Source: Microbacterium invictum (GTDB lineage Bacteria; Actinomycetota; Actinomycetes; Actinomycetales; Microbacteriaceae). Taken from it: a stretch of DNA of 64,000 nt. Made by a program: the position numbers and the translations under genes. Shown here piece by piece: positions 22,936 through 46,701 of the stretch. The notes beneath the pieces were generated by a model. It saw only the letters and a program-made list of their open reading frames with translations, was not told the origin of the DNA and made no database searches. The stretch is taken from contig NZ_CP139779.1 of the NCBI RefSeq assembly GCF_034421375.1, positions 2,790,001-2,854,000 on the forward strand. The letters are read 5' to 3'. The stretch's first letter is position 1, and every line of letters starts with the position of its first letter.

Positions 22936-24366
22936 ATGTCCCGTCGACCTTTCGCGCTCGTCCTCGCCGCGGCATCCCTGCCGATGTTCATGGCGACCCT
23001 CGACAACCTCGTCATGACCAACGCCCTTCCCGTGCTGAGCCGCGAAATGGGGGCGAGCGTGGAGGAGCTGCAGTGGTTCGTCAACGCCTACACGCTCGTG
23101 TTCGCCAGCGCGATCCTCGTCGCCGCGGCTCTCGGCGACCGCTTCGGCCGCCGGACCGTCTTCGCCATCGGCATCGGCGTGTTCGGGCTCGGCTCGGTCC
23201 TGGCCGCCCTCAGCACCGACCCCGGGCAGCTGATCGTCGCCCGGGCGATCCAGGGGCTCGGCGGGGCCGCGGTGCTGCCGCTCTCGCTCGCGCTCCTCAG
23301 CGGAGCGGTCGCGCCCGCACGCCGACCGCTCGCGATCGGCATCTGGGGCGGGGTCTCGGGGCTCGGGGTCGCGGTCGGTCCGCTCGTGGGCGGGGCGATC
23401 ATGGAGGGCTGGTCGTGGCAGGCGATCTTCTGGATCAACGTTCCGGTCGCCCTCGTCGCTATCCCCCTCGCCCTCCTCGTGCTGCCGAACGACCGCGGCG
23501 CGCGGGAGCGCATCGACCTGTGGGGCGCGCTCCTGGCCGCCGCCGGGGTGCTCGCTCTCGTCCACGCGATCGTGCGGGCGAACGACGACGGGTGGGACAC
23601 GATCGGAGTCATCGGCGAACTCGCCCTCGGCGGCATCCTTCTCCTCGCGTTCGTCCTCTGGCAGGCTCGGTCGGCCGCGCCCCTCATCCCGCTCCGGCTC
23701 TTCCGCGACCGGTCGTTCTCGGTGACGAACCTCGTCGGATTCGCGTTCAGCTTCGGCACGTTCGGCGCGGTGTTCCTGCTGATCCAGTTCCTGCAGGTCG
23801 AACAGGGCTCGACCCCGCTCGAGGCCGCGCTGCAGACGACGCCGTGGACCCTCGCCCCGATGATCGTCGCGCCGATCGCCGGGTTCATCGCGCCCCGTGT
23901 CGGCACGCGCCTGTTGCTCGTCAGCGGCCTCGCGCTGCAGGGCGGTGCGCTGGCGTGGATCGCCGCGGTGATGTCATCCGATGTGGCGTACGCGACGCTC
24001 GTGGCGCCCTTCATCATGGCGGGGGTGGGGATGGGACTCGTCTTCGCCCCGTCGGCGACGGCGCTGCTGGCGACCCTCGGGCTCGTCGACCACGCCAAGG
24101 CGTCGGGGGTCAACTCCACCGTGCGCGAGCTCGGGGTCGCGCTCGGCACGGCGGTCATGACCGCGGTCTTCGTCGGCGCAGGCGGCGCCTTGGTGCCCGG
24201 CGAATACGTCGCGGCCGCGCGGCCGGCGATCCTCCTGGGCGCCGCGGTGCTGGGGGTTGCGACGCTGGCGGCCCTGTTCCTCCCCGCCGGGCGCAGCGAG
24301 ACCGCGTCCAGCGCGGTGAAGATCGACGACGAGACCGAGGTCAGCGTCCCCGCAGCAGTCGGGTGA
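22936..24366 (+). CDS. MFS exporter, DHA2 (EmrB/QacA) family
   Basis: A 476-residue proton-driven exporter with about 14 hydrophobic segments. It shows the family motifs: MFMATLDNLVMTNALPVL in helix 1, ALGDRFGRRTVF (motif A) and the helix-5 region GGVSGLGVAVGPLVGG (motif C), typical of antiporters. It probably exports hydrophobic drugs, dyes or a self-made metabolite. ATG 22936 has AAGGAG 5 nt upstream. It is controlled by the divergent TetR gene. The 3' end overlaps the convergent channel gene by 26 bp. Confidence 0.92.
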   Translation: MSRRPFALVLAAASLPMFMATLDNLVMTNALPVLSREMGASVEELQWFVNAYTLVFASAILVAAALGDRFGRRTVFAIGIGVFGLGSVLAALSTDPGQLIVARAIQGLGGAAVLPLSLALLSGAVAPARRPLAIGIWGGVSGLGVAVGPLVGGAIMEGWSWQAIFWINVPVALVAIPLALLVLPNDRGARERIDLWGALLAAAGVLALVHAIVRANDDGWDTIGVIGELALGGILLLAFVLWQARSAAPLIPLRLFRDRSFSVTNLVGFAFSFGTFGAVFLLIQFLQVEQGSTPLEAALQTTPWTLAPMIVAPIAGFIAPRVGTRLLLVSGLALQGGALAWIAAVMSSDVAYATLVAPFIMAGVGMGLVFAPSATALLATLGLVDHAKASGVNSTVRELGVALGTAVMTAVFVGAGGALVPGEYVAAARPAILLGAAVLGVATLAALFLPAGRSETASSAVKIDDETEVSVPAAVG

Positions 24367-24958
24367 GCGGCCCGTCGAGGATGAACAGCAGGAAGGCCGC
24401 CGAGCCGACCCACGGCGAGACGATCACCACGACGACCGAGATGATCACGGCGCTGAGAGCGCCGCGGCCGTAGGCGCGGGCATCGGCCTCGGGAAGATCG
24501 GGCATGAGGTCGGCGCGCCGGCGCACCGCCCACGACCACTGAAGCCAGCTGGTGAGGATCGCCAGGAAGAACGTGATCGGCATGAGCACGCGCCCCGCTG
24601 TGTATGTCGAGTACTCGGTGGTCAGGCCCGTGGCGAAGGGGACGACGACGATGAAGAGCAGCCGGACGTTGTTCAGCCAGATCATGACGCCGTCGGCCCG
24701 GACGATCCACTCGAACTGCTCGACGTGGGTCATCCACAGCAGGCACAGCAGCAGGAAGCTGAGGGCGAAGTTGAAGAACTGGGGGCCCATGGCCGCGAGG
24801 GCGCCCCACATCTCGTCGTTGCTCTCGATCGTGCCGAACGCGTGGGTGGTGAGATCGAGCACCAGCAGTGTCGCGGCGATGGCGAACACCCCGTCGGTGA
24901 AGGCCGCCAGGCGCGTCGCGCCGACCGTTGCCGCGGGGTGGGACCGGGTCCTGATCAC
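24341..24958 (-). CDS. TMEM175-family potassium channel-like protein (DUF1211)
   Basis: A 205-residue membrane protein with six hydrophobic segments and the TMEM175 helix-1 signature RLAAFTDGVFAIAATLLVLDL (the usual FSDGVFAI with Ser replaced by Thr). Bacterial members are single-repeat subunits that assemble as tetrameric potassium-selective channels. The GTG start at 24958 is preceded by TACCCT at 6 nt with no ribosome-binding site. It stands alone, convergent with the MFS gene. Confidence 0.88.
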   Translation of the reverse strand: MIRTRSHPAATVGATRLAAFTDGVFAIAATLLVLDLTTHAFGTIESNDEMWGALAAMGPQFFNFALSFLLLCLLWMTHVEQFEWIVRADGVMIWLNNVRLLFIVVVPFATGLTTEYSTYTAGRVLMPITFFLAILTSWLQWSWAVRRRADLMPDLPEADARAYGRGALSAVIISVVVVIVSPWVGSAAFLLFILDGPLTRLLRGR

Positions 24959-24964
24959 CCCGCC

Positions 24965-24970
24965 AGGGTA
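24965..24970 (-). promoter_or_regulatory. Candidate -10 box for a leaderless transcript (TMEM175-like)
   Basis: TACCCT on the minus strand, 6 nt before GTG 24958. Confidence 0.45.
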
Positions 24971-25050
24971 GCGGCGGCCACCGGCAGGGGCGAGCGCGCG
25001 GCGGCGAGGCCATCGGGCGATTCTGTGGCGGGGCGTACGCCCGGGCAGGC

Positions 25051-26623
<1,573 letters not shown>

Positions 26624-35158: not shown

Positions 35159-35185
35159 TTAGCACCCACACCTTGAGAGTGCTAA
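35159..35185. promoter_or_regulatory. CIRCE operator, proximal
   Basis: TTAGCACCC-N9-GAGTGCTAA, one base from the consensus TTAGCACTC-N9-GAGTGCTAA. It lies just downstream of a TACACT -10 candidate (minus strand, 35189-35194). Confidence 0.92.
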
Positions 35186-35203
35186 TCCAGTGTAGGCAAA
35201 TCG

Positions 35204-35230
35204 CTGGCACTCATGCAACGTGAGTGCCAG
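35204..35230. promoter_or_regulatory. CIRCE operator, distal
   Basis: CTGGCACTC-N9-GAGTGCCAG, a perfect palindrome that keeps the GGCACTC/GAGTGCC core but has CTG/CAG ends. The 9-bp loop contains the -35 candidate TTGCAT. Two HrcA sites therefore bracket the groES promoter. Confidence 0.85.
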
Positions 35231-35375: not shown

Positions 35376-37406
35376 ATGAGTCGGATTGGGGCTGGAACCT
35401 GGGGAGGTTCCGGGATCGACTCTGTTGGGGGAGATGAGAACTTGGCTACTGGGGCTACGTATTTTCTGGGGATCGACGTCGGAACGACGCGGATCGCTGC
35501 GGCAACGGCGCGTACCGCGCCGGACGGCAGCATCGTCGCGGCACCGTTCCCGCTCGGTCGCCGCAACGACAGCGCCGCCACGGTGGTGTTCGTCGCCGAT
35601 GACGGCGAACTGCTGATCGGCGACGCCGCCGAGCGGCGCGGCATCACGCAGCCCGACCGGCTCGTGCGCGAGTTCAAACGCAGCATCGGCGACGATGTGC
35701 CGGTGGTCGCCGGCGGACGGTCGATCCCGGCCGAGAAGCTCTGGGCGCACACGGTGTCGGCGGTCGTCGACGCGGTCGTCGAGCGCGAGGGCTCCCGCCC
35801 CGCCGCGGTGATGCTCACCCACCCCACCGCGTGGGGCCCGCACCGCATCGGCCTGATCCTCTCGGCGCTCGACAAGCTCGGCGTCAAGGACGTCCACCTC
35901 ATCACCGAGCCCGAGGCGGCCGCCCGTCACTACGAGTCGGGCCGCACGATGGAGCCCGGTCAGGCGCTCGCCGTCTACGACCTCGGCGGCGGCACCTTCG
36001 ACTCCGTCGTCCTGCGCAAGAGCGCCGACGGCTCGTTCGCCCCGGTCGGAATCCCCGTCGGCATCGACAATCTCGGCGGCGCCGACTTCGACGACGCCGT
36101 GTTCCGTCACGTGCTGCGCTCCTCGGGTGTCGCCGAGACCGACCTCGACGACACCGACCCCGACATCCGTCTCGCGCTGGCGCAGCTGCGCCGGGAGTGC
36201 GTCGAGGCCAAAGAAGCGCTGTCGTTCGACTCCGACGTCACCGTGCCCGTGCTGCTCCCCTCAGGAGCGACGAGCGTGCGGCTGACGCGCCAGGAGTTCG
36301 AGGAGATGATCGACGGCTCGATCGAGCGCACGATCGACACCCTCGAAGACGGACTGGACTCGGCGGGGCTCGAGCCCGACGCGCTCGAGAGCATCCTCCT
36401 CATCGGCGGCTCGTCGCGCATCCCGCTCGTGGCCGAGCGCCTGTCCGAGCGACTCGACCGGCCGATCGCGATCGACGCCGACCCGAAGTCCTCCATCGCC
36501 CTCGGCGCCGCCCGCGCCCTCGTGCCGGTCACCGCGGATGAGTCGGTCGCGACGCTCGCGCTGGTCCCGGTCGGCGCCGCTGCTGCCGGCGCGTTGGCGA
36601 CGACGGATGCCGCGGCTGCCGCCACGACCGATCTCGCCGTGTTCGACCCGGCGGGTCCTGCGGAGCGGAAGGCTGCGCGCCGCTGGTACCAGCGCGTGCC
36701 CGCCGTCGCGGCCGCGGGGGCCGGTGCCCTCGTCATCGCGACCGGGCTGGTCTTCGCCAGCGCCGGGGGCCTCGGCGCCGGCACGTTCGACGCCGCCGCC
36801 AGCACCGAGAACCTGCGCGAGTGGGTGGACGTGGAACTCACGCCGTCGCCGGCCGCCGCGGACGAGTTGCAGACGTCCGACCCGATCGCCGCGGCCCAGG
36901 AGCCGGCGGCTCCGCAGGCGAGGCAGGACCGGAGCTCGACCGAGAACAAGCCGAAGGCGACCAACGCCCGCAAGCAGGCGGCTGAGCGGAACGCCGCCGT
37001 GCGCCCGCCCGAGCAGCCGAAGCCTGCCGCGAGCCAGTCGGCGACCTCGGGGAAGCCGTCGTCGTCGCAGCCGACGCAGCCGAGTGGTGGCGGGACGGGT
37101 TCGAACACCCCCGCGCCGGGAACCAGCACCCCGGCGCCGGGGACCTCCACGCCGGCACCGGACCCGACCACGACCACCCCGGCTCCGGACCCGACCACGA
37201 CCACCCCGGCGCCGGACCCGACCACGACCACCCCGGCTCCGGACCCGACCACGACCACGCCGGCGCCGGACCCGACCACGACCACGCCGGCGCCGGACCC
37301 GACCACGACCACCCCGGCTCCGGACCCGACGACTCCCGCGAGCGAACCGCCGGCGAGCGAACCGCCGGCGAGCGAACCGCCCGCTGACACGACCCCCGCC
37401 CCGTAA
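35376..37406 (+). CDS. Membrane-anchored Hsp70-like ATPase with Pro/Thr-rich tail
   Basis: A 676-residue protein with the Hsp70/actin ATPase fold: phosphate-1 GIDVGTTR (32-39), TEPEAAA (178-183), phosphate-2 DLGGGTFD (202-209) and adenosine motif IGGSSRIPLV (343-352). The Hsp70 substrate-binding beta-domain is missing. An Ala-rich linker and one helix (441-464) follow, then about 200 residues presumably outside, with about seven copies of TPAPDPTT and three of SEPPA. ATG 35376 is shown, but TTG 35442 has a better ribosome-binding site (GGGGGAG, 8 nt) and would remove a Gly-rich 22-residue start. It precedes the LuxR regulator by 3 bp. Role inferred: sensing or remodelling at the membrane together with the locus downstream. 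Confidence 0.85.
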   Translation: MSRIGAGTWGGSGIDSVGGDENLATGATYFLGIDVGTTRIAAATARTAPDGSIVAAPFPLGRRNDSAATVVFVADDGELLIGDAAERRGITQPDRLVREFKRSIGDDVPVVAGGRSIPAEKLWAHTVSAVVDAVVEREGSRPAAVMLTHPTAWGPHRIGLILSALDKLGVKDVHLITEPEAAARHYESGRTMEPGQALAVYDLGGGTFDSVVLRKSADGSFAPVGIPVGIDNLGGADFDDAVFRHVLRSSGVAETDLDDTDPDIRLALAQLRRECVEAKEALSFDSDVTVPVLLPSGATSVRLTRQEFEEMIDGSIERTIDTLEDGLDSAGLEPDALESILLIGGSSRIPLVAERLSERLDRPIAIDADPKSSIALGAARALVPVTADESVATLALVPVGAAAAGALATTDAAAAATTDLAVFDPAGPAERKAARRWYQRVPAVAAAGAGALVIATGLVFASAGGLGAGTFDAAASTENLREWVDVELTPSPAAADELQTSDPIAAAQEPAAPQARQDRSSTENKPKATNARKQAAERNAAVRPPEQPKPAASQSATSGKPSSSQPTQPSGGGTGSNTPAPGTSTPAPGTSTPAPDPTTTTPAPDPTTTTPAPDPTTTTPAPDPTTTTPAPDPTTTTPAPDPTTTTPAPDPTTPASEPPASEPPASEPPADTTPAP

Positions 37407-37409
37407 GCG

Positions 37410-39944
37410 GTGAGCACGCCGATGACGACTCTGCTCTCGAACTCGTCGGACACCCGGACCGCCTCGATCATGCCCCGTGCCCTTCATGCGCTGACCGCGC
37501 TGCACGCGATCGTCGCAACCGACCGGCCCGTCCGCGCCGCCATCGTGGGGGGCTCCGGATCGGGAAAGACCGACGCCCTGCGCTTCCTCCTCGCTCAGCT
37601 CGAAGCCGATGACCGGCCGGTCAGGCTGCTGTCCGCACGCGATCGCATCTCGACGATTCCTGACGATGTCGCGCTCCTGGTCGATGACGCCCACACGCTC
37701 GACCCGGCACGCCTGTCGCAACTGATCGATCGCGCCCACCGCCCCGACGCGTCGGTGGTGATCGCGTACCGCTCCTGGCCGGCCCCTTCGGAACTGCTCG
37801 AGCTCACCCGCGCGGTCGAGCGCAACGCTCCGGCGGTCCTCCTCGGCGAGATCACCCTCGCCGAACTGCGCGAGATCCTCCCCGACGCGTCGGCCGAGTG
37901 CGAGGAACGGATCCTCTCCGGCACCGGCGGCATCGCCTGGCTGGTCTTCGAGTGCGCACAGGCCCACGCCGCCCTGTCGTACGAGGGCCGGGATTGCGGC
38001 GACCCTGAAGCCCACGCGGATGCGACGCGTGTGCTCATGCGGCGCATCACCCACCGACTCGAGACCGTGTCGCCGCGCCTGCGCCGACGGATCGAGGCGC
38101 TGAGCCTCGGCGTCAGTGACGGCGACGACCGCGACGCTCAGGCCGAGCTCTCTGCCGAGGGGCAGGCCGAGGGGCTTCTTCTCCACAACGGCCGACCCGC
38201 TCCGGTCGTGGCGATGGCGGCCCGCGCCAGCGTGCCCGTTGATCGACTGGTCGACCTGGTCCAAGCCGGCACCCTCGATCTCGTTCCCGGATCCGACCTC
38301 GCCGCCAGTCTCGACGGCATCGTGGATCCCGGGGTCGGGGATCGCCTCGCCGCGCGCGCTCGCCGCGAGGTGGGTCGCAACCCGCATCTGGCCGTCACCC
38401 TTTTCGACTACGCGCTCCGGTGCGGCTCCGACCCGCGCGGTCTTGCGGCGGCACACGCGCACGCCCTGTGGGCAGCGGGAGACGTCGATGCGGCGGGGTC
38501 CCTCCTCGACGACCTCGCGGCCGAGGGCGGCTGGGCCGGGCTCTCGCCATCCGATCATGACCTCCTCACCGACGCGGTCGCCGCCACCTGGGCCGACCGC
38601 GGGCTGATGTCGCTCGCGCACCAGAGCTATCTCGCCGTCACTCCGCTCTCCCCCGCGGGCAAGACGAGGGCTCTGGTCACAGCGGCAGGGGCCGGGTCGA
38701 CCGCCCACGACGGGGATCCGGCGCCGGATGCCCCGGGTGCGGCCGGCTCGGCACCATCGGCGAACGGCGTGGCGATGCAGCTGTGGGCGCGAGGACTGCG
38801 CGCCTCGTTGCAGGCGTCGCACTCCCGCAGCGCGCTCGACGACCTTCGGCGGGCATCGGAGCTGGCGAACGCCGGCCACGACGCGTCGCCCACCACGGAG
38901 CTGCCGGCCGTCGTCGCGGCGATCGTCGCCATCGGGCTGGGAGACCTCGGCGCCGCGCATGGGATCCTTGACGACGCTCAGCGCGCGCAACAGGGCGGCG
39001 CCCGGTGGATTCCGCACCTCCAGCTGTGGAATGCGTGGGTCGCGTTGCAGCGCGAGCAGCCCGCCGAGGCGCGTGCGCTTCTCACCGCGGCGACCGACGG
39101 CACGCGCCTGTCGCCGCGCGACGACCTCATCGCCGCAGCGATCGCGGTGGGCCTCGCCCGCCGTTACGACGACGCGCCGACGCTCGAAGCGATGTGGGAG
39201 TCGGTGAAGTCGCGCGCGACAAGGCCGGAGATCGACCTTTACCTCCTGCTCCCCCTCGGCGAGCTGGTGATCGTCGCCGCGCGCCTGGGCGACGCCCACT
39301 GGACCCAGGCGGCCTTCGACCGGGGTCTCGCGCTTCTCGCCGATCTCGGTGAGCCGTCGCTGTGGTCGGCTCCCCTCCACTGGGCCGGTATCCAGCGCGG
39401 CATCATGCTCAGCCGGCCCGATGATCTGGCCCCGCACGCACGGGCTCTGGTCGCATCCTCATCGCGCAATCCGTTGGCAGCGAAGATGTCGCACGCAGGA
39501 AGGGTGTGGACCTCCGTCCTCGCCGGCCAGGTGGACGCCGATGCGGTGGAAGAGGCGGCTCGCGGCCTGGCTTCGGTGGGTCTCGCCTGGGACGGTGCGC
39601 GGCTCGCGGGCCACGGCTCGCGTCGCTCGGACGACCGGAAGGTCAGTTCGCGACTGCTCGCCTGCGCGCGCGAGCTGCATCCCCGCGAGGCGCCCCGATC
39701 CGCGGACGCGGACTCGCAGGCGACGCCTGCGCGGGCGAGCGCACCAAGCCTGCTCAGCGAACGCGAACGCGAGGTCGCCGAGCTCGTTCTGCAGGGCAAG
39801 ACCTACGCCGAGATCGGCAAGGAGATCTTCATCTCGCCACGAACGGCTGAGCACCACATGGCGCAGATCAAGCGGCGCCTGGGCGCGTCCTCGCGCTCGG
39901 ATCTCATCGCGAAGCTGCGGGTCACCCTCGGTGCGACCGGATGA
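37410..39944 (+). CDS. Large ATPase LuxR-family regulator (IniR/LAL-like)
   Basis: An 844-residue transcription factor. Walker A GGSGSGKT is at residues 47-54 and Walker B VALLVDDAHTL at 87-97, in a STAND/AAA-type ATPase. A long helical, TPR-like middle (about 330-760) follows. The C-terminal LuxR HTH (about 781-840) contains LSEREREVAELVLQGKTYAEIG and SPRTAEHHMAQIKRRLGA. It starts with GTG 3 bp after the Hsp70-like gene and directly precedes the IniB-domain gene, so it is the likely switch of the whole locus, as IniR is for mycobacterial iniBAC. The TPR-like part may bind the inducing signal. Confidence 0.88.
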   Translation: MSTPMTTLLSNSSDTRTASIMPRALHALTALHAIVATDRPVRAAIVGGSGSGKTDALRFLLAQLEADDRPVRLLSARDRISTIPDDVALLVDDAHTLDPARLSQLIDRAHRPDASVVIAYRSWPAPSELLELTRAVERNAPAVLLGEITLAELREILPDASAECEERILSGTGGIAWLVFECAQAHAALSYEGRDCGDPEAHADATRVLMRRITHRLETVSPRLRRRIEALSLGVSDGDDRDAQAELSAEGQAEGLLLHNGRPAPVVAMAARASVPVDRLVDLVQAGTLDLVPGSDLAASLDGIVDPGVGDRLAARARREVGRNPHLAVTLFDYALRCGSDPRGLAAAHAHALWAAGDVDAAGSLLDDLAAEGGWAGLSPSDHDLLTDAVAATWADRGLMSLAHQSYLAVTPLSPAGKTRALVTAAGAGSTAHDGDPAPDAPGAAGSAPSANGVAMQLWARGLRASLQASHSRSALDDLRRASELANAGHDASPTTELPAVVAAIVAIGLGDLGAAHGILDDAQRAQQGGARWIPHLQLWNAWVALQREQPAEARALLTAATDGTRLSPRDDLIAAAIAVGLARRYDDAPTLEAMWESVKSRATRPEIDLYLLLPLGELVIVAARLGDAHWTQAAFDRGLALLADLGEPSLWSAPLHWAGIQRGIMLSRPDDLAPHARALVASSSRNPLAAKMSHAGRVWTSVLAGQVDADAVEEAARGLASVGLAWDGARLAGHGSRRSDDRKVSSRLLACARELHPREAPRSADADSQATPARASAPSLLSEREREVAELVLQGKTYAEIGKEIFISPRTAEHHMAQIKRRLGASSRSDLIAKLRVTLGATG

Positions 39945-39954
39945 GCATCCCCGC

Positions 39955-40004
39955 ATCGGGGGAACCCCGTAACACCCCGACGACTTTTCGGGCTAACCCC
40001 CGAT
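39955..40004. promoter_or_regulatory. Candidate regulator sites upstream of the IniB-domain gene
   Basis: ATCGGGGG (39955-39962) and CCCCCGAT (39997-40004) form a perfect inverted repeat. GGGGGAACCCCG (39958-39969) ends 96 nt before the start codon. A very similar GGGGAAACCCG lies at nearly the same distance before the second acidic gene at 46.5 kb. TAGCCT (40026-40031) is a possible -10. Confidence 0.5.
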
Positions 40005-40065
40005 TCCAGACCGACGACCACCGCATAGCCTCTGTAAAGAGTCTCGCAGAGACAGGAGCCGACTT

Positions 40066-40779
40066 ATGACTACCCCGCTGGCGACCATCGCCGACGCCCT
40101 TATCGAGTTCATTCTGAGCTTGCTGAACGATCCGGACGCAGCAGCCGAGTATGACGCCAACCCCGAGGCCGCTCTCGCCAGCGCCGGCCTCGCCGAGTGC
40201 ACGGCGGAGGATGTCCGCGCTGTCGCGCCGATCATCGTCGACCGCCCCGACGTGCACCCGACCCCGCACCCGAACCCTCCCGGCCCCGGCCCTAAGCCGC
40301 CGGTCGAGAAGGAGATCTGGAACATCGCGAACAACTTCCACATCGACAACCGGGCGACGATCGTCGACCAGTCGGTGAACCAGAACATCTGGGCCGAAGG
40401 CGACGTCAACCAGATCTTCGACCAGGAAGCCGTGATCGCCAGTGGCGACCAGGCTACGGCCGCGGGCGAAGACGCGTCCGTCGACAACTCCGAGACCGAC
40501 GTCTCTGTGGGTGATGTCTCCATCGGCAACGAGGAGAACAACGTCGACATCACGGACTCGTTCGACGACGAGTCGACCAACACCGACACGGACGTGGTCG
40601 TCGTCGCCGACGAGTCGTTCAACGACGGGTCCACGAACGTCGATGCCGACGTCTCGGCCGACGACTCGTTCAATGACACCACCGAGGTCGTCGTGGAGGA
40701 GTCGTACGAGTACGACAACAGCGGAAACATCGCCTCCGAGGACGCCATCGTCTACACCGAGGAGACCGACCAGCCGTAA
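40066..40779 (+). CDS. IniB N-terminal domain protein with acidic Asn/Asp/Ser block
   Basis: A 237-residue, strongly acidic protein. Residues 1-55 (TPLATIADALIEFILSLL, then AAAEYDANPEAALASAGL) match the IniB N-terminal domain of isoniazid-inducible mycobacterial IniB. A Pro-rich hinge (about 63-79) leads into residues 92-207, rich in Asp, Ser, Asn and Val (IDNRATIVDQSVNQ, DQEAVIASGDQATAAGED, DSFDDESTN), probably a repetitive beta structure. That block is shared with the protein at 45.6-46.5 kb. There is no signal peptide. It has a TAAAGAG-type upstream context and AGGAG 8 nt before ATG. Confidence 0.85.
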   Translation: MTTPLATIADALIEFILSLLNDPDAAAEYDANPEAALASAGLAECTAEDVRAVAPIIVDRPDVHPTPHPNPPGPGPKPPVEKEIWNIANNFHIDNRATIVDQSVNQNIWAEGDVNQIFDQEAVIASGDQATAAGEDASVDNSETDVSVGDVSIGNEENNVDITDSFDDESTNTDTDVVVVADESFNDGSTNVDADVSADDSFNDTTEVVVEESYEYDNSGNIASEDAIVYTEETDQP

Positions 40780-40803
40780 CGGTCTTCCCCGTAAGGTTCT
40801 TCT

Positions 40804-42054
40804 GTGACCGACGATCAGAAGCCCCCTCAGCCGCGCGCCGATGCCCCAAGCCGGCGCGCGGCTGAGGATTCTTTCGTGGACGATGTCCTCGCGCAGCACG
40901 CGGCGACGGAGAAGAAGCGCCGGGACCGTCAGCGCCCGGCCAACGCCGTACCCACGCCGACGCCGACGCCGACGCCGGAGGCTCAGATGCAGGGACAGGC
41001 GGCAGGTCAGGTGAATTCGTCAGCACCTCAGGGACAGCCGCGCCCGCAAGGACAGCAACGTCCGCAGGGGCAGCAGGCGCCCGGTCAGGGGCAGCAGCAC
41101 CCGCAGGGACAGCAACGCCCGCAGGGACAGCAACGCCCGCAGGGACAGCAACGCCCGCAGGGACAGCAACGCCCGCAGGGACAGCAACGCCCGCAGGGAC
41201 AGCAGGCGCCCGGTCAGAGGCAGCAGCGCCCGCAGGGACAGCAGGCAACCGCGCAAGGGCAGCAGCGCCCTCAGGGGCAACAACCTCCTCAGCGACCGCC
41301 GCAGGGCGCCCTGCCCTACCCCGGACAACCACCGGCGCGCTCTGGCGCGACTCTCGGCCGCATCCAACCGGTGCAGGTTCCCGCGAGCCAGGCGAAGTTC
41401 GCCCCCGGCTCACCGCAGCAGCCGGTCCCTCTCTACACCGATCCCCAGCCGCCTCAGGGTCCCGTCGTTTCGACTCCCCGTCGCGGGTTTCAGCCGAAGC
41501 GCGACGCCCCCGAGCGTCCCGCGCTGGTCAATCCCTCTGCTGCGCCGGTCATGGCGAAAGCGCCGCCGCCCTTCACGGTACGGATGTCGCAGTTCCTCTG
41601 GGTGCTGAGCTTCGCTGTCGGCGCGGTGGCCGTGGTCTTCTACTTCGTCATCCGCGAAGACCAGCTGCCGTTGATCCAAGACGTCATTCGCGGGGTCAGT
41701 GAGGGACGCGACGACGCGACCTACGAGTCGGCAGCCGACATTCTGTTCTGGTCGGTCTTCGGCATCATGGTGACGCTGCTGCTCGTCCAGATCGCGCAGC
41801 TCGTGTCGTTCTCCGGACGCAAACCCAACATCCGCTGGTGGCAGCTGGGGACGACCCTCGTGATGGGAGTCGCCTACCTCATCGCCCTAGAGTTTGTCGG
41901 GACCGGAGAGTACGGTGCCATGCTCGAGCAGCTCTTCATCGCTCAGGCCGGCCTCGCCGTCCTCGCTCTGCTCTTCAGCACCTTCCCCAATGCCCTGCGA
42001 TGGACGGCCCGCCGCGTCGACGTTCGGCCTGCCGGCGGCGCCGAGGACTTCTGA
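40804..42054 (+). CDS. PQ-rich membrane protein of the IniB-like locus
   Basis: A 416-residue protein of unknown function. The N-terminal 250 residues are hydrophilic and disordered, with tandem RPQGQQ repeats (about residues 79-165). The C-terminal part has four hydrophobic segments (about 268-288, 318-338, 350-368 and 374-395). A short charged helix near the start (AEDSFVDDVLAQHAATEKKRRDR) looks like a docking segment. It is 24 bp after the IniB-domain gene, so co-transcribed. Its last 168 bp also encode, on the other strand, the end of the IniC-like GTPase. Confidence 0.8.
   Translation: MTDDQKPPQPRADAPSRRAAEDSFVDDVLAQHAATEKKRRDRQRPANAVPTPTPTPTPEAQMQGQAAGQVNSSAPQGQPRPQGQQRPQGQQAPGQGQQHPQGQQRPQGQQRPQGQQRPQGQQRPQGQQRPQGQQAPGQRQQRPQGQQATAQGQQRPQGQQPPQRPPQGALPYPGQPPARSGATLGRIQPVQVPASQAKFAPGSPQQPVPLYTDPQPPQGPVVSTPRRGFQPKRDAPERPALVNPSAAPVMAKAPPPFTVRMSQFLWVLSFAVGAVAVVFYFVIREDQLPLIQDVIRGVSEGRDDATYESAADILFWSVFGIMVTLLLVQIAQLVSFSGRKPNIRWWQLGTTLVMGVAYLIALEFVGTGEYGAMLEQLFIAQAGLAVLALLFSTFPNALRWTARRVDVRPAGGAEDF
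41101..41204. repeat. 18-bp in-frame tandem repeat (RPQGQQ)
   Basis: CCGCAGGGACAG starts recur every 18 bp at 41101, 41119, 41137, 41155, 41173 and 41191 with nearly identical DNA. Such an array can change copy number by slippage without shifting the frame. Confidence 0.85.
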
Positions 42055-43506
42055 CACGATCTCCTCGAGACTGCGGATCACCACCCGGCACACCTCGACG
42101 GCCGCCCGCTCGGTCAGCGGCGACTGGCTGAGCGACCGCCAGTAAGCCAGCTGGGTGTCGGCCTCCTCACTCACCTTCTCGTCGGTCGCTTCGTCGTCGA
42201 GGCCCAGGCGGGCGGTCGCGGTGACCCCCTGGCCGCCGATGATCCGCTCGGCCGTCGTCGCATCCGCCGCGCGCAGCGGGAGGCCCGAGGCCTTCGCCTG
42301 CGACAGCAGCGACAGCTCGCGCAGCGTGTGCGCAGTGGCGCGGATCCGTTCGATCCCGGCGAGGATCGACTGGGTCCCCTCCCTCGGATCCGCACGGATC
42401 GCCTGCTCCAGCCCGTCGAGGACGCCGCGGACCTTGAGGTCAGCCCCACGCGTGCGGAACTGCTCCCGAACGAACCCCTGGAGCTCCTTCAGCCCGCTGT
42501 GCTGCACGAGCTGGTCTGCAAGCTCGGTGGACGTCACCGCGCCGCCCCGGATCAGAGCGACGGCCAGCCGCACACCGAAGATGCCGAATCGCGCCAGCAG
42601 TTCTCGCCTGACCTTCTCACTGAGAGTGGTGAGCTCCGAGGGCCGGGCGAAGCGGTCGGCCGACACCATCAGCCGTTCCCGGTCATCGCGGGGAAGACCC
42701 GCGAGCTCCTTGAAGGCCGCGTACTCGCTCTCGCGGAGGGTCTTGGCGCTCTCGGCGAGGAGGCCGGCCACGGGGACGACACCGAGCGAGAGCGAGGCGA
42801 GGTCGCCGTCCCTCTCGTAGCGGCGAGCCACCTTCTGCGCCGAGAGCATCGAGTCGATGCGCCCCGAGCCGATCTCATCGGCGCGCGACAGTACCGCCAC
42901 CGCATTCACTGTCTCCGACGAGCCGGCAGCGGTGTCGCGGAAGGACTCCAGGAACTTCAGGTCCGACGCGTGCAGGTGACGCATCAGGTAGATGATGGCG
43001 TCCGCAGAGGACGGTCGCGCCTCGGGGACGAGGAACGCGGTCGAGCGTGCCGAGACGTCCGTCGACAGCGACGCGATACCGGGAGTGTCGATGAGGATGA
43101 CAGAGCGAAGACCCGTCGACGGCCAGCCGACGTCGATCCACGCGACCTCCTCGGCCGCGACGCCATCGAGCTCGAGCACGAGTCGACCCGCCTCGCGCTT
43201 GATGGGCATGCGCCTGGGCTCCCCCTCGTGAGGATGGAGCGTGATGCTGGGGGTCGTGGAGTATCGGTACCAGGTCACGACCCGGGTGCACTCCCCGGCG
43301 TCGGTGGGCGCCAGCTTCTCGCCGAGTATGGCGTTCAGCAGGGTCGATTTCCCCGCCTTGACCATGCCCGCGAGGGCCAGCCGCAGCGGCTCGTGAAGAC
43401 GGCGATGCAGGTCGTTCAGAGCCACCCGGGTGTCGGAGGGTTCGGGGTATATCTCCTGCGCCGCTGCGATCAGCTTCGCTGCGTCATCGCGTACCGTCGC
43501 CGTCAC
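41887..43506 (-). CDS. Dynamin-like GTPase, IniC-like
   Basis: A 539-residue GTPase of the bacterial dynamin superfamily. G1 is GMVKAGKST (47-55), G2 the Thr in ECTRVVTWY, G3 DTPG (140-143), and G4 reads SRAD (207-210) instead of TKxD. The rest is helical and lacks a clear membrane paddle, as in IniC. The C-terminal 55 residues are acidic and Gly-rich. The GTG start overlaps the IniA-like stop (GTGA). The 3' end overlaps the PQ-rich gene by 168 bp tail to tail. It probably acts on the inner membrane with its partner. Confidence 0.87.
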   Translation of the reverse strand: MTATVRDDAAKLIAAAQEIYPEPSDTRVALNDLHRRLHEPLRLALAGMVKAGKSTLLNAILGEKLAPTDAGECTRVVTWYRYSTTPSITLHPHEGEPRRMPIKREAGRLVLELDGVAAEEVAWIDVGWPSTGLRSVILIDTPGIASLSTDVSARSTAFLVPEARPSSADAIIYLMRHLHASDLKFLESFRDTAAGSSETVNAVAVLSRADEIGSGRIDSMLSAQKVARRYERDGDLASLSLGVVPVAGLLAESAKTLRESEYAAFKELAGLPRDDRERLMVSADRFARPSELTTLSEKVRRELLARFGIFGVRLAVALIRGGAVTSTELADQLVQHSGLKELQGFVREQFRTRGADLKVRGVLDGLEQAIRADPREGTQSILAGIERIRATAHTLRELSLLSQAKASGLPLRAADATTAERIIGGQGVTATARLGLDDEATDEKVSEEADTQLAYWRSLSQSPLTERAAVEVCRVVIRSLEEIVSEVLGAAGRPNVDAAGRPSQGIGEGAEEQSEDGEAGLSDEELLEHGTVLSGPDKL

Positions 43507-45410
43507 CGCTGTACGGTCTCCAGCTGCCTCACGGCGGGAACGTCCGGGATCTTCGACCGCACCGCCTCGATCTGCGCGATCTGCATCTGCAGCTGCTTCA
43601 CCCGCTGGTCCTGGTTCGCTGAGAACGACCCGGCAGCCTGCTTGGCAGCGAGAACGGCTTCGGAAAGCGAACGGTGGAGCTCATCGGCGATGCTGCCGAA
43701 GTGATCACGGGCTGCGCGCTGCACCATGCGAAGTCGGTCTTTGAGCTGCTTGGAGACCTGGAAGATCACCTCGTCGATGTGCCTTCGGACGATGTTCTTC
43801 GCCTCGAAACGGCGCCTCGACAGGCGGTTTCCCATGTCTTCGCGATACGCGCGACGTCCCACCAACACACCCGCGAGGAGGGAGAGCGGGTTGATCAAGG
43901 AAAGTCCGATGAGGCTGGTCGCGAGCCCGACCATGAGCACCCCGCCGTAGGATCCGCGGACGCCGATGAAGATCTTCTCACCTGCCCCGAGGGTGCCCGC
44001 ATCCAGATGGGAGATCTGGTCGATCGGATCGAGCACGCCCGAGGTATCGGCCACGTAGACGACGGGAATCTCGGTCTCGCCCTCCTGGAACAGATCCGCG
44101 ACCTCCTCGCAGAGCCAGCGTGAGCGCTCGTCCGTCCAGACGAAGGTCTCGGACACGGCGGCCGAGATGCGCTGGTCGAGCCAGTCCGTCATCTGCTCCC
44201 AGATGGGGCCGGGGTCACCCTCGTCGATGGCGTTCTCGGCCTCGCGCTGCACTCGGCGGAGACGGTCGCGTAAGTCGTGCTCCATGTCGGAGATGAGGTC
44301 GGCGACGCCATCGTTCAGAGCCGTCTGCCATTTCGACGAGCGACCGCGGAACTCCTCGGTGCGGGCTTTGGCGTCTTCGAGTTGCGCGATCATGCGCGGG
44401 GTGTCTTCGGGGTGCAGAATCGCGTTCAACTCGCTCGTGAGCGACATCTGCAGCTGATCGACGACCGACACCAGGTCGTGCACCGCGGAGCGTGCCTGGA
44501 TGTCTTCAGCGCGGCCGAGGACGTCACGACGCAGGTGCGAGACGAGGGCGGGGAATCCGGATTCGTCGTTCAGTTCCCGGTCCTGCAGCTGCGCGGCCAT
44601 GAGGCGCAGATCGCTCGACACGGAGAAGACCGGCACCTCGCCGACGTCCCCGAGGTGGCCGCGGTCGATCTGCTCGATCTCGCGCCAGTGGGGATAGAGG
44701 TCGGTCTTGGCGATGACGGCGGCGACGTTCGGAGATACGCGCATGGCGTGGCGGAGGAACTGCACCTCGGGTTCGGTGTACTCCTGCGACGCATCGGACA
44801 CCAGGAGCACGGCGTGCGCACTCGAGAGAGCTGCGAGCGTGGCAAGGGCGTTCGTAGAATCGAGACCGCCCACACCGGGCGAGTCGACCAGGCGGAGCCC
44901 GCCCTTGAGGAGCTCACGCGGGAGCGCGACCTCGGCGCCGAGGATGTGCTGCTCGTTCTGGGGGTTGCCCTTCTCGGACACATAGTCGGCGAGCTTCTCC
45001 AGGGGAACCTCGAGTCGCTCGACGACCCCCGGCTCACCCTCCTTCTGGGTGACGACCCAGGCCCCCGGGGTTTCGGAGTAGCCGACCGCGGTCGGGACGC
45101 TCGTGGCGACGTCGTCGTCGACCGGGCACACCGGGGCGTTGACGAGGGCATTGATGAGCTTGCTCTTGCCCTTCTTGAACTCGCCGACCACGATGACGCG
45201 GACGTTCGGGTCCTCCAGACGGTCGCGCGTGTGGTGGAGTCGGTCGGCGAGGTCACCGCGGCCCGCCGACTCGGCGAGCGTGCCGATGTTGTCCACCAGG
45301 GTGACCAGCGTCTTGCCGGTCTCACTCTGGCTCAAAGCTGGGAGCGTCACCTCCTGGCTCTGCGGGCCCTGTCCGCTCACAACACCGGTGTTGTTCGTCT
45401 TGTCCCCCAC
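43503..45410 (-). CDS. Dynamin-like GTPase, IniA-like
   Basis: A 635-residue bacterial dynamin-like protein. G1 is GEFKKGKS (76-83), G3 DSPG (176-179) and G4 AKTD (234-237). Long helical stalk regions surround a hydrophobic segment near 489-515 (MVGLATSLIGLSLINPLSLLAG) that could be the membrane paddle, as in mycobacterial IniA, which mediates membrane fusion or fission. I chose GTG 45410 because AGGGGG lies 4 nt upstream; GTG 45437 and ATG 45431 give a slightly longer N-terminus without a ribosome-binding site. Coupled to the IniC-like gene. Confidence 0.88.
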   Translation of the reverse strand: MGDKTNNTGVVSGQGPQSQEVTLPALSQSETGKTLVTLVDNIGTLAESAGRGDLADRLHHTRDRLEDPNVRVIVVGEFKKGKSKLINALVNAPVCPVDDDVATSVPTAVGYSETPGAWVVTQKEGEPGVVERLEVPLEKLADYVSEKGNPQNEQHILGAEVALPRELLKGGLRLVDSPGVGGLDSTNALATLAALSSAHAVLLVSDASQEYTEPEVQFLRHAMRVSPNVAAVIAKTDLYPHWREIEQIDRGHLGDVGEVPVFSVSSDLRLMAAQLQDRELNDESGFPALVSHLRRDVLGRAEDIQARSAVHDLVSVVDQLQMSLTSELNAILHPEDTPRMIAQLEDAKARTEEFRGRSSKWQTALNDGVADLISDMEHDLRDRLRRVQREAENAIDEGDPGPIWEQMTDWLDQRISAAVSETFVWTDERSRWLCEEVADLFQEGETEIPVVYVADTSGVLDPIDQISHLDAGTLGAGEKIFIGVRGSYGGVLMVGLATSLIGLSLINPLSLLAGVLVGRRAYREDMGNRLSRRRFEAKNIVRRHIDEVIFQVSKQLKDRLRMVQRAARDHFGSIADELHRSLSEAVLAAKQAAGSFSANQDQRVKQLQMQIAQIEAVRSKIPDVPAVRQLETVQR

Positions 45411-45496
45411 GCATCCCCCTTGGTCGTGCATCCCCACTCACACGGTACGCCAATCTCTGCCGTGCGAGAACCGTCGCCCCCCGGGCGGTAAACGCG

Positions 45497-45534
45497 CCTT
45501 GCCCGGCCACTCCCCAAGGGGTGGCCGGGCAAGG
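45497..45534 (-). terminator. Terminator hairpin between the acidic protein gene and the IniA-like gene
   Basis: CCTTGCCCGGCCAC and GTGGCCGGGCAAGG form a 14-bp stem, extended by CCC/GGG after a bulged T. It lies 28 bp after the minus-strand stop at 45563, so the acidic gene and the GTPase pair are probably separate transcripts. Confidence 0.75.
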
Positions 45535-45562
45535 TGTGTTAGGTCAGTGAGCTGGTGTCAGA

Positions 45563-46525
45563 TCACAGGTCGATGTCGTCGGCGACGACGCTGTCCTCGG
45601 TGAACAGGTTGCCGCTGTTCGACCAGTCAACGTCGGTGTCGATCTCGGTGTACTCGTACTCGTTGAAGGCGTCCTCGACGTCGACGTCCACGATGGTGTT
45701 GGTGGAGTCGTCGTTGAAGGAGTCGTCGATGTCGAGCTCCCAGTCGTAGTCCTCGTTGACCGAGTTGTCCTGGAAGGAGTCGCTGATCGACACGTCGTTC
45801 CACGTGTTGCCGGTGTAGATGTCGCCGATCGAGATCTCGGTGACCGAGTTGTCGACGGTCGCGTCGTCGCCGGCAGCGGTGGACTGGTCACCCGAGGCCA
45901 CGACGGCCTCCTGGCCGAAGAACTGGTTGACGTCGCCACCGGCGTTGATGGCCTGGTTCGCCGACTGGTCGACGACCGTGGTGCGGTTGTCGATGGCGAA
46001 GGTGCCACCGGCAGCAGCGGCCGCGGCGCCACCGGCACCGGCGCCGTGGAAGGCGTAGTCGTTGCCGACGTTGGTGTTGTACTGGCGCACACCGACCGTG
46101 ATCGACTCGTCCGTCAGGGTGTAGTCGTTGTAAGAGTCGGTGTTGCCCGAGTCTTCCCAGCTGTTGTTGGAGTCGTTGACCGAGTTGTCGGAGTTGTCCG
46201 AGTTGTCCGAGTTGTCCGAGTTGTCGGAGTTGTCGGAGTTGTCCGAGTTGTCGGAAGCGTCGATGTCGACGTCAACGTCGACGTCCGTCTCGTTGAACGA
46301 GTCGCTCGCGGTGTTGCCCGAGTCGTCGATGTCGACGGCGGTGTTGCCCGAGTCGTTCGTGGAGTTGTCGGAGTTGTCGGAGTTGTCCGAGTTGTCCTCG
46401 TTGCCGGAGCCGATGGCGACGTTGTTGTCCGAAAGGACCTCGTTGCCGACGGTGCCGATGTTGTTGTCGTCGTTTCCGAACACGTTGTCGTCATCTGCGA
46501 TGACGTTGTCCTCGATGTTAGGCAT
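45563..46525 (-). CDS. Asn/Asp/Ser-repeat acidic protein sharing a block with the IniB-domain protein
   Basis: A 320-residue, extremely acidic protein. Residues 1-150 are low complexity, with DNS triplets (residues about 43-55 and 92-116) and DSGNT motifs. A Gly/Ala patch (160-175) follows. Residues 177-275 are clearly homologous to residues 92-207 of the protein at 40066-40779 (IDNRTTVVDQSANQ, GQEAVVASGDQSTAAGDD, DSFNDDSTN). The IniB N-terminal domain is absent. I prefer ATG 46525 (AAAGGGATGG just upstream); ATG 46567 is possible. No signal peptide. It may form a repetitive beta structure; the function is unknown. Confidence 0.78.
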   Translation of the reverse strand: MPNIEDNVIADDDNVFGNDDNNIGTVGNEVLSDNNVAIGSGNEDNSDNSDNSDNSTNDSGNTAVDIDDSGNTASDSFNETDVDVDVDIDASDNSDNSDNSDNSDNSDNSDNSDNSVNDSNNSWEDSGNTDSYNDYTLTDESITVGVRQYNTNVGNDYAFHGAGAGGAAAAAAGGTFAIDNRTTVVDQSANQAINAGGDVNQFFGQEAVVASGDQSTAAGDDATVDNSVTEISIGDIYTGNTWNDVSISDSFQDNSVNEDYDWELDIDDSFNDDSTNTIVDVDVEDAFNEYEYTEIDTDVDWSNSGNLFTEDSVVADDIDL

Positions 46526-46620
46526 GTGCCCATCCCTTTCGCTGGAAGCCTTGTGGCGTTGCTCCATCAGTGTCAGCCTCAGGTGCCATCCCCGGCATCC
46601 GGGATGACCCCGGAGCCTTT

Positions 46621-46637
46621 CGGGTTTCCCCTAGGGG
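46621..46637 (-). promoter_or_regulatory. Candidate regulator site upstream of the acidic protein gene
   Basis: On the minus strand GGGGAAACCCG (46621-46631) ends 95 nt before ATG 46525. It overlaps the perfect palindrome CCCCTAGGGG (46628-46637). It resembles GGGGGAACCCCG at 39958-39969 in both sequence and distance to the start codon. Confidence 0.5.
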
Positions 46638-46701
46638 TCCGGTGGGGGGTTTCGGGGTTCGGGGTCGATGAGGGGTCCGGGGTGCCGCGTACCTCCCCGC
46701 C

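Follow-up and report, generated by a model that had tools for sequence, protein, structure and literature searches.

The closest described relatives of the system considered here are the drug-stress locus iniBAC of mycobacteria, its regulator IniR, and pairs of bacterial dynamin-like proteins. The available text of the source papers describes an IniR chromatin immunoprecipitation peak directly upstream of iniBAC and a dnaK-like gene beside iniR in Mycobacterium smegmatis (Boot et al., 2017; PMC5760070), as well as membrane fission activity of IniA from M. smegmatis (Wang, 2019; PMC6715688). We analysed a 64-kb stretch of Microbacterium invictum (bases 2790001-2854000 of the 3.53-Mb single-contig genome), hereafter the window, in which seven open reading frames (ORFs) form two converging arms at 35376-46567 (positions within the window), each where the original prediction had placed it. 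Judged from its sequence, this block is an expanded relative of iniBAC; the prediction of an IniBAC-type locus was borne out by IniA, IniC, IniB-domain and IniR-like matches. Because the seven genes are inherited together, include an IniR-type regulator and carry related promoter motifs upstream of both arms, we propose, with a probability of roughly 0.6, that the block is one IniR-controlled module of the IniBAC type for envelope stress and membrane remodelling.

The forward arm begins with the Hsp70-like protein P0001 (HSP; 35376..37406, + strand, 676 aa), which joins an Hsp70 nucleotide-binding half to a membrane-type segment and a Pro/Thr-rich tail. The adjoining ATPase/LuxR regulator P0002 (37410..39944, +, 844 aa) aligns end to end with the IniR family NF038181 of NCBIfam (residues 25-840), though at 321 bits against an equivalog cut-off of 750, and by this score is thus an IniR homologue and not a curated equivalog. 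P0003 (40066..40779, +, 237 aa) is of the IniB type, matching the IniB N-terminal domain NF038175 with 73 bits (cut-off 40); AlphaFold places four helices in residues 5-58 with a predicted local distance difference test (pLDDT) score of about 80, and the acidic repeat region that follows is probably disordered (pLDDT under 50 for residues 144-236). The last gene of the arm encodes the PQ-rich protein P0004 (40804..42054, +, 416 aa), with long C-terminal helices predicted at residues 257-282, 304-337, 343-365 and 371-392 (pLDDT mostly above 85), which we read from their hydrophobic sequence as membrane helices. Of 21 aligned proteins, only P0004 and its nearest relative (L066) have prominent PQ repeats, and the conserved part of the family is the four-helix C-terminal domain. 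On the reverse strand, the second arm comprises the acidic D/N/S-rich protein P0007 (45563..46567, -, 334 aa), the IniA-like dynamin GTPase P0006 (43503..45437, -, 644 aa) and, directly downstream of it, the IniC-like dynamin GTPase P0005 (41887..43506, -, 539 aa). Both GTPases match Pfam Dynamin_N, the relatives of P0006 are 33-95% identical to it, and the IniA-family profile matches the solved IniA structure 6j72 over the full length (E 1.3e-189). No Pfam family matched P0004 or P0007 at E <= 1, and P0007 likewise matched no NCBIfam model.

As far as the available text of the mycobacterial studies describes that system (iniB*/Rv0340; PMC5760070), the likeness lies in an IniR-type regulator adjoining a small IniB-domain gene, in an IniB-type gene directly upstream of iniA-iniC, and in a dnaK-like gene next to iniR, as in M. 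smegmatis. The two acidic proteins P0003 and P0007 correspond to the mycobacterial iniB*/iniB pair, and the core common to their C-terminal halves (I-D-N-R-x-T-x-V-D-Q-S-x-N-Q, as read from the sequence) makes them paralogues on this comparison. P0007 occupies the place of mycobacterial iniB and has only this C-terminal core in common with IniB; the IniB N-terminal domain was not found directly upstream of iniA in the window. The locus further differs from iniBAC in its two converging arms, in its acidic D/N/S repeats as opposed to the glycine-rich IniB of M. tuberculosis (PMC6715688, available text), in its extra four-helix PQ protein and in a regulator whose score does not reach the IniR equivalog cut-off. 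Its two jointly encoded dynamin GTPases also recall the dynamin-like pairs described in the accessible parts of earlier work (IniA of M. smegmatis, PMC6715688; a bacterial pair, PMC6104087), from which the present pair differs in being set among a dedicated regulator, IniB-type proteins and two membrane proteins.

The co-inheritance of these families was examined in 148 genomes, the window's own included, which are related and hence are not independent trials. They were searched for IniA, the PQ protein, the Hsp70-like protein (E <= 1e-50) and the IniB domain, with up to eight first-look candidates per genome scored for IniA and the Hsp70-like protein. IniA was present in 35 genomes, 28 of which are the window's genome and its genus. 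The Hsp70-like protein was found in 34 of these 35 and in two of the 113 others (G073 and G132), and the lone IniA genome without it (G104) matches IniA weakly, at 74 bits. The PQ protein occurred in 29/35 versus 0/113 genomes, and the IniB domain exceeded its cut-off in 30/35 versus 0/113, the match in G098 being weaker. Within the genus, neither the Hsp70-like protein nor the IniB domain was missing from any of the 28 IniA genomes, and the PQ protein was found in 27; the remaining genome (G044) is an assembly of about 650 contigs. The families thus co-occur far more often than chance would give, and because they are inherited together, the Hsp70-like part belongs, on these comparisons, to the system and is not a chance neighbour. 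The original prediction had held that scattered genes, or Hsp70-like and PQ genes rarely accompanying the dynamin pair, would mean chance neighbours; both do accompany it. A lone Hsp70-like relative was observed in G073 (L201:8528-11353), a genome without IniA or IniB matches.

Gene order was compared around 34 IniA matches (the 35 less that of the window) and in 80 named loci, which are the best of 446 relatives. Type I, the order of the window, is HSP-IniR-IniB-PQ> <IniC-IniA-acidic, in which the acidic gene is present in one or two copies; it occurs in Microbacterium, Phycicoccus and others, including many metagenome bins. Type II, found in Agromyces, Arthrobacter, Herbiconiux, Naasia, Compostimonas and Pseudarthrobacter, is HSP-IniR-IniB-IniA-IniC> <PQ; these loci have only one IniB gene, and an acidic gene of its own was not found in them. 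The IniB domain lies upstream of iniA there, and in the window it adjoins the regulator as P0003. Full context, defined as at least 9 kb on either side of IniA, was available for 48 of the 80 named loci (the other 32 were left out), and a scripted count assigned 34 to type I, 12 to type II and two (L072 and L114) as incomplete. L072 does carry HSP, in an ORF joined across N's, so that the six core genes are complete in 47 of the 48 loci, and IniC is present in all 48. The 48th locus, L114 (corresponding to G072 = L200), keeps both arms with an insertion of about 12 kb between them.

The surroundings of the block bear on its descent. HSP, the acidic gene, groES, RarD and a THUMP-like gene (d1) were found together in 33 of the 80 named loci, in the order RarD-groES-block-d1 in 28 and RarD-block-groES-d1 in five. 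None of the 14 IniA-less genus relatives inspected had block genes at the corresponding site, G073 with its lone Hsp70-like gene elsewhere being one of them; in 11 of the 14, d1, groES and RarD are direct neighbours, in L188 and L192 these genes are separated by 1-4 kb of other DNA, and L198 gave no RarD match. In a comparison of 36 type I loci, IniA distances correlated with the distances for the neighbouring TsaD (Mantel r 0.50, reached by 0 of 2000 permutations); IniA is the faster-diverging of the two (mean 0.33 vs 0.14). Presence and absence at one site, together with this correlation, suggest a history largely of vertical descent with repeated loss, to which transfer may also have contributed.

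Some further observations concern the integrity and ends of these genes. The insertion of L200/L114 includes an ABC-transporter ATPase and a GntR-like regulator, as read from the sequence. HSP of L079 and IniR of L094 are each split into two ORFs, which probably reflects gene disruption or faulty assembly. P0004 and P0005, on opposite strands, overlap tail to tail by 168 bp at their 3' ends (41887-42054). An overlap between the best-scoring ORFs for IniC and the PQ protein was seen in 53/58 type I loci, where it measures 57-261 bp, and in 15/18 type II loci; it may reflect mutual antisense control or overprinting.

Beyond the genus, a sample of 394 genomes from the class had the IniB domain in 40 genomes and 12 of 137 genera, with 37 matches over the cut-off, and 40 stretches around IniB-domain matches were examined, a few matches having been left out or already covered. 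An Hsp70-like gene (more than 90 bits) was present in all 31 IniA-containing stretches, three of which are same-genus, and in 28 of them its product has a membrane-type segment by hydropathy, L159, L166 and L167 being below the threshold. In many class stretches IniB and IniR flank this gene, and a second copy is present in several. Within these stretches PQ proteins were confined to the three same-genus loci, apart from a hint of 24 bits in L164, and this four-helix protein seems to be the sole lineage-restricted part of the set. The original prediction had counted the Hsp70-like protein, the PQ protein and the second acidic protein as additions to the mycobacterial set, a description that fits the PQ protein and neither the Hsp70-like protein, present at 31/31 IniA loci across the class, nor the second acidic protein, which has its counterpart in the iniB*/iniB pair. 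L149 contains an IniR equivalog (1267 bits) and two IniB-domain genes, one of the Rv0340 family (215 bits, cut-off 100), and the f22 loci are for that reason termed mycobacterial-type; IniC of most of them is matched by the family profile at about 520-560 bits. What is new here is the generality of the link between the Hsp70-like protein and IniBAC, which was in print earlier for one species, M. smegmatis; apart from Boot et al. (2017), the open-access literature searched yielded nothing on an association of Hsp70 with IniB, subscription papers being mostly outside this search. At L168:1206-8235 and L169:1332-8174, at a distance from the dynamins, an Hsp70-like gene forms a separate divergent pair with a gene whose giant, repetitive product (1586 and 1554 aa) has an IniB domain.

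P0001 resembles DnaK in its nucleotide-binding half, which carries the DnaK motifs and to which the Pfam HSP70 match is confined; its best Protein Data Bank (PDB) match covers DnaK residues 4-349. It differs from DnaK in that the substrate-binding domain was not seen among the PDB matches listed, which end at or before residue 414, and in that a hydrophobic stretch and a Pro/Thr-rich tail follow that residue. Six ATPase residues, given in what we take to be DnaK numbering, were compared in 109 Hsp70-like proteins, some genomes contributing to two sets. All six are intact in P0001 and in 12/12 type II copies. In type I copies (n = 54), K70 is kept in 32 and T199 in 37 (range per residue 32-52), and in the class set (n = 43), where divergent heads make the alignment approximate, D8 is kept in 11, K70 in 7 and T199 in 10 (range per residue 7-42), the catalytic Thr being replaced in 33. 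A hydrophobic segment follows the head in 48/54 type I, 12/12 type II and 37/43 class-set copies, and then a Pro/Thr/Ser-rich tail. The loss of catalytic residues in most class-wide copies, likewise new here, suggests anchoring rather than chaperoning, intact though these residues are in P0001; a common function based on ATP cycling in the manner of a chaperone is unlikely when so many relatives no longer have them. The predicted label of an Hsp70-class ATPase is apt for P0001 and less so for many of its relatives: the head may still hydrolyse ATP here and is probably a non-catalytic anchor in most mycobacterial-type copies.

Two palindromes resembling CIRCE (controlling inverted repeat of chaperone expression), at 35159 and 35204 (span 35159-35230), lie between groES and the Hsp70-like gene, 146-217 bp upstream of the latter. 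They travel with groES in relatives and are thus read as groES elements; heat-shock control of the Hsp70-like gene was rejected, as the palindromes stay with groES where the block sits on its other side (e.g. L042, L077 and L090).

Two motifs may connect the arms with the regulator. The palindrome ATCGGG-N6-CCCGAT, read by eye from 17 loci, was counted within 250 bp upstream of each gene and, with at most two mismatches, occurred in 49/71 IniB regions (3.6 in shuffled sequences) and 17/50 acidic-gene regions (shuffled, 1.0), the control regions yielding 1/79 (IniA), 1/81 (IniC), 1/68 (IniR) and 3/74 (PQ). In the window, the candidate operator TTCGGG-N6-CCCGAT (39987..40004, +) lies upstream of the IniB gene with one mismatch, and a weak site, TCCGGG-N6-CCGGAT (46597..46614, -), upstream of the acidic gene with three. 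In the class set (L146-L181), the top 8-mers upstream of IniB were TCCCCTAA, ATCCCCTA and ATTAGGGG, and CCCCTA[AG] boxes were found in 30/32 IniB regions (67 boxes, 2.1 expected) and 14/28 HSP regions, versus 0/28 for IniA, 0/27 for IniC and 3/24 for IniR; within the window's own taxonomic order they are rarer, type II loci having them in 7/14 IniB regions (12 boxes, 1.2 expected). In the 34 loci of the class set that have family genes, which lie outside that taxonomic order, 97 of 106 [TC]CCCCTA[AG] boxes are close to the start of IniB or HSP, in regions covering at most 12.4% of the sequence, many of these loci coming from one genus; 42 belong to IniB alone, 41 to a region common to HSP and IniB, six to IniB and IniR and eight to HSP alone, with nine elsewhere. 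The sole such box in the window, TCCCCTAGGGGT (46627..46638, +), is upstream of the acidic gene. The palindrome and the CCCCTAAT boxes, both new here, suggest one IniR regulon. The words 'binding site' and 'consensus' are absent from the available text of Boot et al. (2017; PMC5760070), and boxes may be described in subscription papers. Stand-alone IniB-domain genes (over 900 aa) of mycobacterial-type genomes (L150:9824, L152:9972 and L154:10167) have paired CCCCTA boxes upstream and are candidates for further IniR targets.

Considering these results, we propose the following scenario. The IniR-like ATPase would sense an envelope-stress signal, bind the candidate sites and turn on both arms. 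IniA and IniC may act as a heterotypic dynamin pair that, by analogy with IniA of M. smegmatis, binds damaged plasma membrane and then cuts or seals it. The IniB-type proteins, both acidic, would form a disordered cytoplasmic scaffold, tied to the membrane by the four-helix PQ protein and by the Hsp70-like protein, whose nucleotide-binding head would lie inside, with its anchor in the membrane and its Pro/Thr tail towards the wall. The predicted membrane-remodelling stress role is the natural reading, given the published fission activity of IniA. More tentatively, at somewhat less than even odds, a membrane-anchored Hsp70-derived (pseudo)ATPase may be a standing partner of IniB-domain proteins across Actinomycetes, sometimes without dynamins, the two forming an envelope-anchored scaffold for IniA/IniC. 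The whole set would then be a single IniR regulon, with CCCCTAAT-type boxes as its mark, and the system a general membrane-stress machine older than its isoniazid-linked use in mycobacteria. That the fixed set of partners extends to bacteria in which mycolic acids are not known suggests such a general function; the set gives the dynamins a likely anchor and scaffold, supplies candidate operators and offers an environmental genus as a place of study.

Several points weigh against the proposed module. The palindrome was found upstream of HSP in 0/61 regions, and the 17 loci that suggested it are also in the counted set, which makes the control genes the fairer test; the three-mismatch palindrome of the acidic arm in the window is of a kind that shuffles reach in about 11/50 regions. 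The CCCCTA[AG] box is sparse in type I, with 13/57 IniB (15 boxes, 1.4 expected), 9/50 acidic-gene (12, 2.7 expected) and 3/49 HSP regions (5, 1.4 expected), and of the 97 boxes near starts in the class set, 41 fall in the common region of divergent HSP and IniB genes and only eight near HSP alone. That IniR binds the palindrome or the box is something we infer, and the putative scaffold and anchor roles derive from low-confidence structure prediction and sequence-read topology. To our knowledge, Microbacterium is not known for mycolic acids, and the mycobacterial trehalose signal may thus not carry over to it.

Other explanations fit parts of these data. A secretion or vesicle module, in which the IniB-type proteins are cargo or wall material released with membrane by the dynamins and the Hsp70-like and PQ proteins, would account for the presence of dynamins beside two membrane proteins in a single block and for repetitive IniB-type proteins of variable length (one of 1586 aa; acidic ORFs of 278-930 aa, some with over-extended starts), and IniB/IniBAC is mentioned in the available text of mycobacterial vesicle papers; we nevertheless think it unlikely, as no signal peptide is evident at the starts of P0003 and P0007, as read from the sequence, and none of the seven proteins matched an export component in Pfam or NCBIfam. 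Slightly less likely again is a chaperone operon, in which the Hsp70-like protein folds or disaggregates IniB and the dynamins in the ordinary Hsp70 way: the intact ATPase residues of P0001 and the type II copies agree with it, and the membrane-type segment in place of a substrate-binding domain and the replaced catalytic Thr of most class-set copies speak against it.

An anti-phage or stress-tolerance island around the paired dynamins, a phage role having been raised by the original prediction, seems improbable. Presence and absence at one site would suit it, as would the PADLOC matches of P0006 to LeoBC (65 bits, E 1.6e-18) and of P0005 to LeoA (31 bits, E 3.9e-8), for which no curated cut-offs are shown and which any dynamin might give. 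Apart from a helix-turn-helix match of P0002, however, PADLOC returned nothing further among the seven proteins; none of ten neighbouring proteins, screened by Pfam scan only and including groES, TsaD and other ordinary genes, is defence-named; IniA distances track those of TsaD; and the regulator is IniR-like. No specific support for the phage role was thus obtained. That the dynamin pair, Hsp70-like and PQ genes are independent genes brought together by chance, as the two Hsp70-like genomes without IniA and the arms separated by an insertion in L200 might hint, is contradicted by the co-occurrence counts and the promoter motifs and is the least credible of these readings by far. The IniR-controlled envelope-stress module is therefore preferred.

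Elsewhere in the window, the ORF at 24341-25849 encodes a TMEM175 potassium-channel domain at residues 313-404, and its true start is probably further in.

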